From Thermoanaerobacterales bacterium (GTDB lineage: Bacteria > Bacillota > Desulfotomaculia > Desulfotomaculales > JASEER01): 41,885 nucleotides of DNA. Position numbers and translations under genes: made by a program. The notes beneath the pieces are model-generated. The model saw nothing but the letters and a program-made list of their open reading frames with translations. It was not told where the DNA came from and did not search any database. Each line of letters opens with the position of its first letter. Positions within the stretch are counted from its first letter, which is position 1. Shown one piece after another: positions 704-6,947 of the stretch. The stretch is from the NCBI GenBank assembly GCA_030019475.1, contig JASEER010000009.1:30612-72496 (forward strand), written 5' to 3'.

Positions 704-1051
704 ATGCGTATTAGGGTGGAGGTCGTGGGCGACGTCCCGGCCAATGAGTACGGAAGGCCGGGGTGAGCGCCGGGCGGGTGCGCGTCCGGCGGACGCGACC
801 TGTCGTTCATCTACCGGCTGCTGGAGGGATTAGCGCAGCGTCTCTACGGTTCCCGGGTGACGGTGGCCTATCGCTACGGCGCGGCGATGGCCGCGGCGCG
901 TACGCCCGTGGTGTTTGTTGATGGATCGGAAGTGGCCGCCGGCGAAGTGCCGGTGCCGCGGATTATCCGTTATCTGGACGGACTGGGCGTGCCCCGGGCC
1001 AAAGAGACGGGGGGTGAGGTCGATGGCCCGTCCGGGCAAGGTCAAGGTTAA
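704..1051 (+). CDS. Thioredoxin-like selenoprotein candidate (UGA at 764-766 read as Sec)
   Basis: The frame opened by ATG 704 meets TGA at 764-766 and then stays open for 94 more codons to TAA at 1049-1051. Upstream of the ATG is AAAGG at good distance. Reading TGA as selenocysteine gives 115 residues with U21 in GUAPGGC, so a U-x4-C pair with Cys26. The rest looks like a thioredoxin-like fold: an N-terminal beta strand (RIRVEVVGDV), a helix (LSFIYRLLEGLAQRLYG), a strand (RVTVAYRYG), then TPVVFVDGSEVAAGEVPV, which resembles the cis-Pro and substrate loop of small thioredoxin-like proteins, and a terminal helix. A hairpin with SECIS geometry begins 10 bases after the TGA. The last 29 bases overlap the Smr gene, so the two are probably co-translated. 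The alternative is a nonsense mutation in a Cys-containing gene. The function is unknown; a thiol/selenol redox role is inferred. Confidence 0.7.
777..800 (+). promoter_or_regulatory. Candidate bacterial SECIS element
   Basis: Directly after the in-frame TGA (764-766) lies a hairpin: lower stem GGT (777-779) with ACC (798-800), a single bulged G at 780, upper stem CGCGTCC (781-787) with GGACGCG (791-797), and a GGC apical loop (788-790). The E. coli fdhF SECIS has the same plan: a GGU/ACC lower stem, one bulged base on the 5' side, a short upper stem and a loop starting with GG. Here the loop Gs are 22-23 bases after the UGA, against about 19-20 in fdhF, within the known bacterial range. SelB would bind this loop to deliver Sec-tRNA. 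Confidence 0.7.
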
Positions 1052-3539: not shown

Positions 3540-5117
3540 ATGCGTGTTCGACAGAAGATCCTGGCCGGCTACCTGGTGGTCCTTGTCATGCTGGTGACCA
3601 TTGCCACCCTGACGGTGACTCAAGTCTCCAGGGTCGACCGCTCTTACCGGGAGCTGATCGACCATCGCGTAGGCCTCGTGCGGCAGACGGAAGAGATGTT
3701 GCTGGCCTATGAATATATGGCGCTCATGATGCGGACCTACCTGCTGACGGGCCTTCCGGAGTATCGCGAAGAATATGACGCACAGGCGAAACTGGTCCAG
3801 AGCGCCTTGCGGGATACGGAACCTAAACTTACCGCCTCGAAAGAGAAAGAAATCTTCAACAACTTCCGGGCCGTACTGACGCGCTTTCAGTCGGACTACG
3901 CGGTCCCCATTATGAATGTACATGCCCGCGAGGATCTTACCCCCCAAGAAAAAACGGCGGAGATCGAAAGGATCACCCTGGCGAACAAGGGTATCGTGCG
4001 CGGGGTCATCAAGGATGGGCGGGAATTCGTTACCTACCAGGAGGAGGAAATGAAAAAGGCGCAGGCTCAGGTTGCGGCCGTGGTGAAGCGGGTCACCGCG
4101 GTCACCTGGACGGTGGCCGGTATCGCCATCCTGCTGGGGATCGGCGCCGCGCTCTTGATCTCGCAGGTTATTACGGCGCCGGTCAAGAGGCTGGAAGCGG
4201 CGGCGACGCGGGTGGCGGACGGCGACCTGACGGTCGGCGACGTGGAAATCCGGTCCAAGGACGAAATCGGCGTTCTCAGCCGGTCTTTTGGCAAGATGGT
4301 CGCCGCTTTGCGAGGACTTGTCGGCGATATACACAAGTCTACCGCGGAGGTGACGTCAGCCACGTCCGAATTGACCTCCAGCAGCCAACAGGTGGCATCC
4401 GCCGCTTCAGAAACGGCCACGGCAATGAGCGAGGTTTCCGCGACGGTGCACCAGGTGGCCGACAACACCAACGCCATCGCGGCCTCGGCGCAGAAGGCGG
4501 CCGCCCAGGCCCACAACGGGCGGGAGACGCTGAAAGAGGTCGCGGACCAGATGGAGAAGGGGAGGCGCGCCTCGGCCCTGGCCGGGGAGACGGTCAAACA
4601 GCTGGAACAGAAACTGAAGGAGATCAGCAAGATCGTGGAGTTTATTACTCTAATCGCCGACCAGACCAACCTGCTGGCTTTGAACGCGGCCATCGAGGCC
4701 GCGCGCGCCGGTGAACAGGGGCGCGGTTTCGCCGTCGTGGCCGAGGAGGTGCGCAAGCTGGCCGAACAGTCGGCCACCGCGACGAAGGATATCGGGGCCT
4801 TGATCAACGGTATCCGCAGCGACGCGCAGCGCGCGGTGGCGGCGATGGAGGAGGACCTGCGGATGGTCACCAGGGGCAACGAAATCGTCCAAACCGCCAA
4901 CCAGGCCTTCCAGAGCATTATCGCCGAAGTCGACGCCCTGGCGCAGCAGATCCACGACGTCGCGGCGGCGACGGAAGAGGTGTCGGCGACGATCGAAAGT
5001 GTCACCGGGACGGCGGAGGAACAGACAGCCACCGTCGAAGAGGTGGCCGCGGCCACGGATTCGCTTAACCGCCTGGCGGAGCGCCTGCGGGAGGAGGTGA
5101 CGGGTTTCAGGTTATAG
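3540..5117 (+). CDS. Methyl-accepting chemotaxis protein
   Basis: A 525-residue transmembrane chemoreceptor. The first membrane helix is at about 8-28, an extracytoplasmic four-helix-bundle-like sensor at about 30-180, the second helix at about 188-210, a HAMP domain at about 211-265 and a signalling domain to the end. The hairpin tip [20 protein letters not shown] and the following [17 protein letters not shown] are intact, so it should couple to CheA/CheW. There is no C-terminal CheR-tethering pentapeptide. GAGGAGG precedes the ATG. Its upstream 59 bp is repeated before the gene at 19469. It is a paralogue of the receptor at 10811. The ligand cannot be told from sequence. Confidence 0.95.
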
Positions 5118-5297: not shown

Positions 5298-6947
5298 TTG
5301 GTATCTGATAAACGAGAACGTCCGACGGGTCCTGAGGCGCCCGGCGTTGACGAAGGGACGCTTGCGGTCCCCGCCGTGACCACGTCGGAGCTGGCGGAGA
5401 GAATGCTTGACAACGCCGGACTGTTGGAAATATTTGACCGGCAGGTGTTACGCCTGAGCGGCGTGCTGCAAGGGATGGCGGGGACCTTCGCGCTGGTGAT
5501 GACTGACGCGGAAGGGTGCTGCCTGAGAGTGCGTACTTGCCAGCTTTCCCCCCAGGACGTTGAGAAGCTGGGGCTGAAGAAGGGGTCTCTCCTCCTTGAG
5601 GATTTTGTGGGCCCCTGCGGGATCGCCACTACTCTGGTCAGGGGAGTGCCGGTTATGTTCCGTGGGCCGGAACACGGCAGGTCGGCTTACCATAACTGGG
5701 TAACGATGGGTGTTCCGATTCATGCCCAGGACGGGGGAACCGTCGGCGCCCTGGGCCTGTATGTGGCGGCGGCCCAGGACACCCTGCCCCTGCTGGACCT
5801 GCTGGTGCTTGCCGGACATGCTATTGAAGCCGACCTCGCCAGGGTTACTTTACAGCAGCAGTTGGCGGCCAAGGCCGGGGCCCTGGAGGCAATGCAGAAG
5901 GAAACCCACGGTCTCTTCGACGCGCTGCCCATGGGAGCCATGGTGGTCAACAGCAGGCTCAACATAGTGGTCTGGAACCATGCGGCCGAGAGGATAACCG
6001 GCCTGGATGCAAGCCATGTGCTTGGCAGGAACGTCTTTGCCGAGGCCCCTGCCCTGCTGGAGGCTGACTGGGCGGAACTGCAGGCAAAAATCGCGGAAGC
6101 GCTGTACGGGGAACGGCCCATTTTCGGACAGGAGATCACCGTGCGGTTGGATGGCGAGGACACCATCCTCTCGTATAGCATCCACCCGGTGTGGTCCGAA
6201 AACCAGGACTGTGGCAAGTGCCTGGTTCTATTCGAAGACGTGACTTATCAGCGTCGGCTTGAAAGAAGAGTGCGGCGGACGGACGAGAAGATGGAACTTG
6301 TGGGACAAGCCCTTGACAGCCTGCCGTTCGGCGTCGTGATTACGGATGCCTTCGGACGCATAGTGTATGTGAACGGGACTTTTCAACGCAAGACGGGGTT
6401 TGACGCCGAGGCGGTCATAGGAGTCAGGCTCGGCGCGTTGGGGCGTGACGTTGCCGGCCCGTCGAAGAGGAGAGACGACGCGGAGAGGATGACGTCCCTC
6501 GACGGGGCTGCGCCTCAGATGTCTACCGAAGGCCGTTTTTATGCCCTGGCGGACAGGTCGGGCCGAGAACGGGTGTTTGTCCTTGACAATCATTCGGTTG
6601 AGGCCGGTGGGCAAAAACTAGGAACTGTTAGCCTTTGGGATGACCCCGGGACCACGGGGCGTTTGGCGGTACGTTTTAAAGATATTGCCGGCCTGGACGG
6701 AGTCCGGGTAGCCAGGGCCCCGAAGGAGGGGCTGTCCGTGGCCGTCCTTTGGGAGCAGGTACGAATGTACCGCGGGATGACGCCGGCGCAGTTTGCCCAC
6801 CAGGTCCTGGACCTCAACCTCAGCCAGTATCTCCGTTATGAGAAAGGCGCGAAGTTTCCCAGCCTGCCGAACGCCCTGGCGCTGGCCCGCAGGGCCAACT
6901 TCGCCCTGGAAAGCATCTATTGCCTGCTGGATGATACGGCGGTTTGA
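5298..6947 (+). CDS. GAF-PAS-PAS sensor regulator with C-terminal XRE-type HTH
   Basis: A soluble protein of 549 residues. Residues about 30-190 form a GAF-like domain of the type seen in AcoR-like sigma-54 activators (GPCGIATTLVRGVPVMFRG, then HNWVTMGVPIHAQDG and GALGLY). Two PAS domains follow, at about 205-315 (LPMGAMVVNSRLNIVVWN) and about 330-400 (LPFGVVITDAFGRIVYVN). There is no AAA+ domain. The last 70 residues form an XRE-like helix-turn-helix (YRGMTPAQFAHQVL, then QYLRYEKGAKFPSLPNAL). It therefore looks like a ligand- or redox-sensing DNA-binding regulator that acts without sigma-54. TTG 5298 is preferred over TTG 5265 because GGAGGG (5286-5291) precedes it by 6 bases. A strong terminator follows, so it is probably transcribed alone. 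Confidence 0.82.
   Translation: MVSDKRERPTGPEAPGVDEGTLAVPAVTTSELAERMLDNAGLLEIFDRQVLRLSGVLQGMAGTFALVMTDAEGCCLRVRTCQLSPQDVEKLGLKKGSLLLEDFVGPCGIATTLVRGVPVMFRGPEHGRSAYHNWVTMGVPIHAQDGGTVGALGLYVAAAQDTLPLLDLLVLAGHAIEADLARVTLQQQLAAKAGALEAMQKETHGLFDALPMGAMVVNSRLNIVVWNHAAERITGLDASHVLGRNVFAEAPALLEADWAELQAKIAEALYGERPIFGQEITVRLDGEDTILSYSIHPVWSENQDCGKCLVLFEDVTYQRRLERRVRRTDEKMELVGQALDSLPFGVVITDAFGRIVYVNGTFQRKTGFDAEAVIGVRLGALGRDVAGPSKRRDDAERMTSLDGAAPQMSTEGRFYALADRSGRERVFVLDNHSVEAGGQKLGTVSLWDDPGTTGRLAVRFKDIAGLDGVRVARAPKEGLSVAVLWEQVRMYRGMTPAQFAHQVLDLNLSQYLRYEKGAKFPSLPNALALARRANFALESIYCLLDDTAV

Follow-up and report, generated by a model that had tools for sequence, protein, structure and literature searches.

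A probable selenoprotein with a U-x4-C motif and a predicted thioredoxin-like fold, from a DUF1462/ArsD-like superfamily that interchanges selenocysteine and cysteine

The stretch of DNA analysed here, 41,885 nucleotides from a Thermoanaerobacterales bacterium (hereafter the window), holds at positions 704-1051 of its forward strand what its sequence and that of its relatives indicate to be a real selenoprotein gene, very probably intact despite the stop codon within it. The explanation that best accounts for the evidence as a whole, and which we hold with considerable confidence, is that selenocysteine (Sec) would be inserted at an in-frame UGA under the direction of a SECIS-type hairpin, giving a thioredoxin-like protein of 115 residues that most likely performs selenol/thiol redox chemistry. 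We conclude that the gene is a branch of an uncatalogued DUF1462/ArsD-like superfamily of thioredoxin fold in which Sec and Cys are swapped at a pair of positions. What comparison adds to the window itself is that Sec is a family-wide property within this broader Sec/Cys superfamily, and that the U-x4-C spacing is specific to the window's own subfamily.

A conserved reading frame across an in-frame UGA

The frame opens with ATG at 704, six bases 3′ of the Shine-Dalgarno-like AAAGGGA at 691-697 that bears out the ribosome-binding site proposed in the sequence-only reading, and closes with a TAA ending at 1051. It is interrupted by a single TGA at codon 21 (764-766, read as Sec), after which 94 codons stay open before the TAA; the coordinates and description that the sequence-only reading had given for this frame proved exact when we read it again. 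The predicted product is MRIRVEVVGDVPANEYGRPGUAPGGCASGGRDLSFIYRLLEGLAQRLYGSRVTVAYRYGAAMAAARTPVVFVDGSEVAAGEVPVPRIIRYLDGLGVPRAKETGGEVDGPSGQGQG, in which Sec is residue 21 and Cys26, encoded by the TGC at 779-781, is its probable partner in the U-x4-C motif.

Homologues that cross the TGA were recovered within the order. A six-frame search of 40 relatives with the single window protein gave matches in 12, all of them crossing a TGA, and the best TGA-containing matches in other genera reached E-values down to 1e-27. In translation, one and the same short motif holds the TGA in these 12 relatives, and a profile built from them found matches aligned across the TGA in 34 of the 113 genomes of the same order. 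The sequence-only reading had proposed looking for Cys or UGA at position 21, and in the first sample homologues with UGA at this place occur in 10 of 30 genera. Among the order-wide members, borderline matches included, the active-site loop contains TGA with a single exception, a paralogue in genome G065 that has Ser (TCA) in this column; two matches listed without a TGA, in G054 and G056, start just past the Sec codon, and the TGA lies upstream in their DNA. A scan of named genomes with a strict profile returned four loci only, all from Desulfofundulus, Desulfovirgula or similar organisms.

Conservation extends over the protein on both sides of the UGA. Eight residues are invariant in the seven subfamily members of alignment A2 (C26, G29, L33, Y37, L40, E41, G49 and Y56), and closely related pairs show dS above dN in the part that follows the TGA (for example, 0.36 versus 0.04). 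A UGA kept in homologues together with protein conservation on either side of it is the pattern by which a selenoprotein is recognised.

Several copies in relatives depart from the common arrangement. Genome G065 holds tandem copies (L044:4018-4347 and 4494-4808), one with Sec (TGA) and the other with Ser, the TCA of the latter being one base from TGA; this is probably a natural Sec-to-Ser change in a decaying or repurposed paralogue. The sequence-only reading had said that an ordinary sense codon other than Cys would indicate a nonsense mutation, and such a codon does occur, but its sole case is this paralogue, which sits beside a Sec copy. In genome G031, a second copy on the reverse strand of L043 (about 6351-6664) lies beside an intact Sec copy and seems broken by a frame change. 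A further copy, on a contig labelled Armatimonadetes (L060, JAIMBK010000069.1), closely resembles the one in Desulfofundulus thermobenzoicus, and the record name is probably wrong.

These data bear on the simplest alternative, that the TGA really ends translation or arose by nonsense mutation and that the region is either a pseudogene or two small genes, one at 704-766 and one starting further downstream, for instance at GTG 857. Ordinary gene callers would indeed take TGA 764-766 as a stop, an open reading frame for 64 amino acids does run from GTG 857, and two relatives have degraded tandem copies (Ser in place of Sec in L044, the frame change in L043). Against this, the identical TGA is retained across many genera, the protein conservation spans the stretch from the TGA to 857, dN stays below dS downstream, and a covarying hairpin stands immediately 3′ of the TGA. 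We therefore give a stop or pseudogene very little probability and proceed with the frame read through as a selenoprotein gene.

A SECIS-type hairpin and the selenocysteine machinery

The sequence-only reading had described a downstream hairpin at the right distance with a GGT/ACC base, one 5′ bulge and a GG loop, and a structure of this plan is present on the forward strand at 777-800, where its 5′ arm overlaps the Cys26 codon. Its 10 base pairs comprise a GGU/ACC base and, beyond a bulged G780 on the 5′ side, a stem of 7 base pairs capped by a GGC apical triloop (788-790), with the loop 21 nucleotides past the TGA. The hairpin thus lies just 3′ of the UGA and has a G near the start of its apical loop, the features sought in a bacterial SECIS element. 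It differs from the SECIS element of E. coli fdhF in the bulged base, which is G here and U in fdhF. The folding energy was lower than expected from shuffled sequences (z = −2.7), an equally stable fold arising in 2 of 200 shuffles.

Evidence that the pairing is maintained comes from 13 gap-free aligned relatives (alignment A6), a set that shares ancestry and onto which the structure drawn from the window sequence was laid. Across these relatives 86% of cells could pair, compared with 29-41% when the 3′ arm was slid, and both sides had changed at 8 of the 10 pairs, giving 22 double-change cells where shuffling gave 7.3 on average; none of 500 shuffles reached the observed values for pairing, double-change cells or covariation. 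A covariance model found matches beginning exactly at the UGA in four left-out relatives (L023, L025, L031 and L037), and these are only suggestive because their scores are weak (E = 0.012 to 0.56). In one selD gene of the same genome, the UGA is likewise followed by a comparable stem with a GGC loop. The SECIS model of the window's subfamily (A, below) did not convincingly find subfamilies B and D, so their hairpins differ from that of subfamily A. Rfam, searched around the site at a permissive threshold, gave no SECIS family match; since bacterial SECIS elements are poorly covered there, we do not count this result against the assignment.

The machinery that such a hairpin would serve is encoded in the same assembly. 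The sequence-only reading had proposed looking for selA, selB, selC and selD, and all were found: selA (2e-162); an adjoining selB over its cut-off (contig C20); a tRNA-Sec scoring 78.6 bits with anticodon TCA (UCA in the RNA); and two selD genes of Sec type, each with an in-frame TGA (genome G000, C32:13654-14577 and C2:53505-54422). SelB exceeds its cut-off in 109 of the 113 genomes of the order, and because nearly all of these genomes have it, co-occurrence of the family with the machinery is uninformative here.

Readthrough might in principle be achieved without Sec, by a suppressor tRNA or by reassignment of UGA to another residue. Nothing specific speaks for such a route, and the complete Sec machinery, the bacterial SECIS plan of the hairpin and the occurrence of Cys, the usual counterpart of Sec, at corresponding positions in distant relatives all argue against it; we judge it highly improbable. 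Sec at 764-766, as the sequence-only reading proposed, instead agrees with the TGA-bearing homologues, the covarying hairpin, the machinery and the Cys of distant relatives. For the living cell we infer from these sequence data that SelB would bind the hairpin at 777-800 and bring Sec-tRNA(UCA) to the UGA, and that readthrough would then yield the protein of 115 residues.

Sec/Cys interchange in an uncatalogued superfamily

Within the order, the family falls into subfamilies with distinct active-site motifs. The window belongs to subfamily A (GRPGU-x-P-x-GC), in which 16 of 17 members have U-x4-C and one has U-x5-C. Subfamily B has AP[CF]UPPDG and lacks the second Cys, subfamily C has RPGUPP-x-G-[C/G/K], and subfamily D has GWEGU-x-x-PG-x-S-x-GCS. 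Thus the U-x4-C motif proposed in the sequence-only reading holds for the window's own subfamily but does not extend to its sisters, and the absence of Cys26 in two sister subfamilies implies that the Sec21-Cys26 pair is not essential to the superfamily.

Distant Firmicutes members place Sec elsewhere or dispense with it, carrying C-x4-U (L068, L074, L075 and L079), C-x2-U (L100) or Cys only. Cys in place of Sec, which the sequence-only reading had proposed looking for, occurs at the corresponding pair in these distant relatives (L076, L066, L072, L083 and L087) and in DUF1462 members, but not closer to the window: for the subfamily to which the window belongs, the order-wide profile search of 113 genomes found no Cys form. 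A clean Cys/Sec pair is formed by L076 (C-x4-C) and L068 (C-x4-U), which share 34% identity over 105 gap-free residues, and L100 (C-x2-U) scores over the cut-off of DUF1462, the Cys members of which have C-x2-C. Further DUF1462-like frames containing a TGA were seen in other Firmicutes (L068, L074, L075, L079, L100, L067, L070, L077, L085 and L086), in which Sec occupies the alternative site of the pair (C-x4-U, C-x2-U) or lies close to extra Cys.

In a joint alignment and tree, the window's group came out as a single clade with Sec throughout (support 94/83, short of the starred level), and about six Sec/Cys changes were required overall; with the deep branches of the tree weak, any count of independent Sec/Cys switches is tentative.

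We could not find this family described. No NCBIfam 20.0 model (June 2026) was over its cut-off for any member tested, no entry with the same domain or motif appears in a 2026 catalogue of 119 prokaryotic selenoprotein families (PMC13188914), and the new selenoprotein families of deep-Sep are different ones. The nearest listed proteins by description are Sec.1 and Sec.2 of Brachyspira, whose architecture differs (PMC5330540), and the sole open paper naming DUF1462 merely assigns it to the thioredoxin clan (PMC3091736). We therefore call the family uncatalogued in the sense of NCBIfam 20.0, the 2026 catalogue and the main texts of the open literature, as distinct from GenBank or RefSeq annotation. 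Since NCBIfam drives annotation, and the family is absent both from it and from the catalogue, members are likely called as truncated genes or missed.

Such cases matter in that selenoproteins are detected almost only where their family is already known. The superfamily also offers a set of naturally occurring variants (Cys/Cys, Sec first, Sec second, Sec alone, and Sec replaced by Ser) for asking why a protein uses Sec at one site or the other, and it hints at what the long-uncharacterised DUF1462/YuzD fold might do.

Predicted fold, proposed chemistry and comparison with known proteins

The window protein is predicted to adopt a thioredoxin-like fold. An AlphaFold model built from 17 sequences (pLDDT 85.9, pTM 0.75) has the thioredoxin-like order of strands and helices and places Sec21 in the loop that connects strand 1 to helix 1. 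The top Foldseek match to this model was 1xg8, a DUF1462 protein (E = 5e-3, prob 1.00), with the ArsD structures 3mwh, 3ktb and 3kgk among ranks 2-5. VIA-align gave Z-scores up to 7.8, under 8, with SelW tied with many thioredoxins, so that 'thioredoxin-like' is the safe statement; given these ties and the weak Foldseek E-values, the fold call rests on the model together with profile links. Model and fold search agree with the thioredoxin-like fold named in the sequence-only reading, the nearest families being DUF1462 and ArsD and not classical thioredoxin.

Profile comparisons (hhalign) connected the window group to the distant group at 99% and to YuzD at 95%, the latter over the C-terminal two thirds only, and connected the distant group to YuzD at 98% and to ArsD at 93%; the window group reached ArsD at 40%, over the C-terminal half only. 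Searches of Pfam and NCBIfam with the window protein gave nothing over cut-off, PF07315 and ArsD included. Subfamilies C and D scored 24.0-24.9 bits against PF07315, just under its cut-off of 25, and some distant Sec members passed it (26.9 and 25.1). Weak ArsD matches appeared only in distant relatives (0.0048 in Pfam, 0.026 in NCBIfam), the similarity of the family to Pfam Thioredoxin_3 was likewise weak and below cut-off (best 0.0032), and no member tested matched the Rdx/SelW family. A profile search of PDB sequences returned weak matches only (AhpF, 1xg8), and one distant member searched alone returned nothing meaningful.

The protein is not a classical thioredoxin or glutaredoxin, having U-x4-C in place of C-x2-C or U-x2-C and matching no such family over cut-off. 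Nor does it qualify as an ArsD: the window's G-U-x4-C lacks the vicinal Cys pair plus third Cys that act as metalloid ligands, and subfamily B has C-U and no third Cys.

The genes around the selenoprotein gene differ between the window and its relatives. In the window it is followed on the same strand by a small stand-alone Smr-domain protein (1014-1274; PF01713, E = 1.7e-10), starting at GTG 1014 or ATG 1023 and overlapping the end of the selenoprotein gene, and then by a HIT-family (Hint-like) protein (1313-1696; PF01230, E = 2.2e-23) with a probable TTG start at 1313 after AGGAGG at 1299-1304. Both are thus encoded beside the gene as the sequence-only reading had said, but a functional link finds no synteny to stand on: no Smr or HIT relative lies near the gene in 25 other loci with flanks of 1.5-6 kb, and the two neighbours are probably incidental. 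Among relatives, Desulfofundulus-type genomes have HdrC/HdrB-like genes 3′ of it and others have Hsp20, while in one family an Fe-hydrogenase lies upstream; we take all of these as local synteny. No conserved operon partner was found in the relatives' neighbourhoods, and a redox role is in this respect without support from genetic context; with Smr and HIT in the window and other neighbours in relatives, context does not decide between redox and metal(loid) functions.

On the other side of the gene, positions 10-612 of the window encode a MAD4-like protein (NF047734, E = 2.4e-66), and 5′ of it on the same contig (L048:7349-8599) is an AAA ATPase resembling HEC-01A, mad3 and AriA. The two are probably a defence pair, located immediately 5′ of the selenoprotein gene.

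As for the chemistry, Sec21 would sit where thioredoxin-fold proteins keep their active cysteines, with Cys26 five residues on. Sec21 could act as the nucleophile that attacks an oxidised or electrophilic substrate, Cys26 would resolve the intermediate as a selenenylsulfide, and a cellular reductant would regenerate the pair; where the second Cys is missing, as in sister subfamilies, the resolving step would fall to an outside thiol. If the protein is a selenoprotein, we lean towards this selenol/thiol redox chemistry of Sec21 and Cys26.

The main rival accepts the selenoprotein and makes Sec21 and Cys26 the ligands of a soft metal or metalloid (arsenite, mercury, copper or selenite-derived species), in the manner of the ArsD chaperone. 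The U-x4-C spacing is that between the vicinal Cys pair and the third Cys in the ArsD sequences compared (CC-STGV-C), and those Cys of ArsD bind metal. Subfamily B moreover has a vicinal C-U pair, ArsD structures occupy Foldseek ranks 2-5, and some relatives match ArsD weakly, the distant group reaching it at the 93% given above. For the window's own subfamily the direct profile link is weak (the 40% match over the C-terminal half), the protein keeps two chalcogen ligands and not three, and the neighbouring genes examined included none recognisable as ars. On balance we regard metal binding as unlikely, though deserving of real weight, and retain redox chemistry as the preferred function. A bolder extension is that this is a large unrecognised superfamily of Firmicutes selenoproteins in which Sec has moved within the active pair (U-x4-C, C-x4-U, C-x2-U, C-U), some members employing the selenol to bind soft metals or metalloids, as a selenium counterpart of an ArsD-like chaperone; we offer it as a speculation with a rather low chance of being right.

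Four known groups invite comparison. Sec.1 and Sec.2 of Brachyspira (PF13192) are likewise small thioredoxin-fold selenoproteins, but their Sec is carried by an N-terminal extension, some 35 columns ahead of where a separate thioredoxin domain has its CXXC position (PMC5330540), whereas in the window protein Sec is the active-site residue itself and there is no CXXC. SelW-like (Rdx) proteins (2npb and related) have a comparable fold (VIA-align Z of 7.8, tied) and also carry Sec in the loop that leads from strand 1 into helix 1; unlike the window protein, SelW has CxxU. DUF1462/YuzD (PF07315; 1xg8 from S. aureus) has the same predicted fold with its active Cys in the same loop, but its Bacillus-type members have C-x2-C and no Sec, in contrast to the U-x4-C of the window protein, which does not match PF07315. 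ArsD (PF06953) differs in its CC pair and its C-terminal Cys pairs, which the window protein does not have, and in an ars context, which we did not see here; like the window's family it is thioredoxin-like in fold, keeps chalcogen residues in the loop joining strand 1 to helix 1, and has an x4 spacing to the second Cys and a P-x-x-x-V-D/N-G motif before the last helix.
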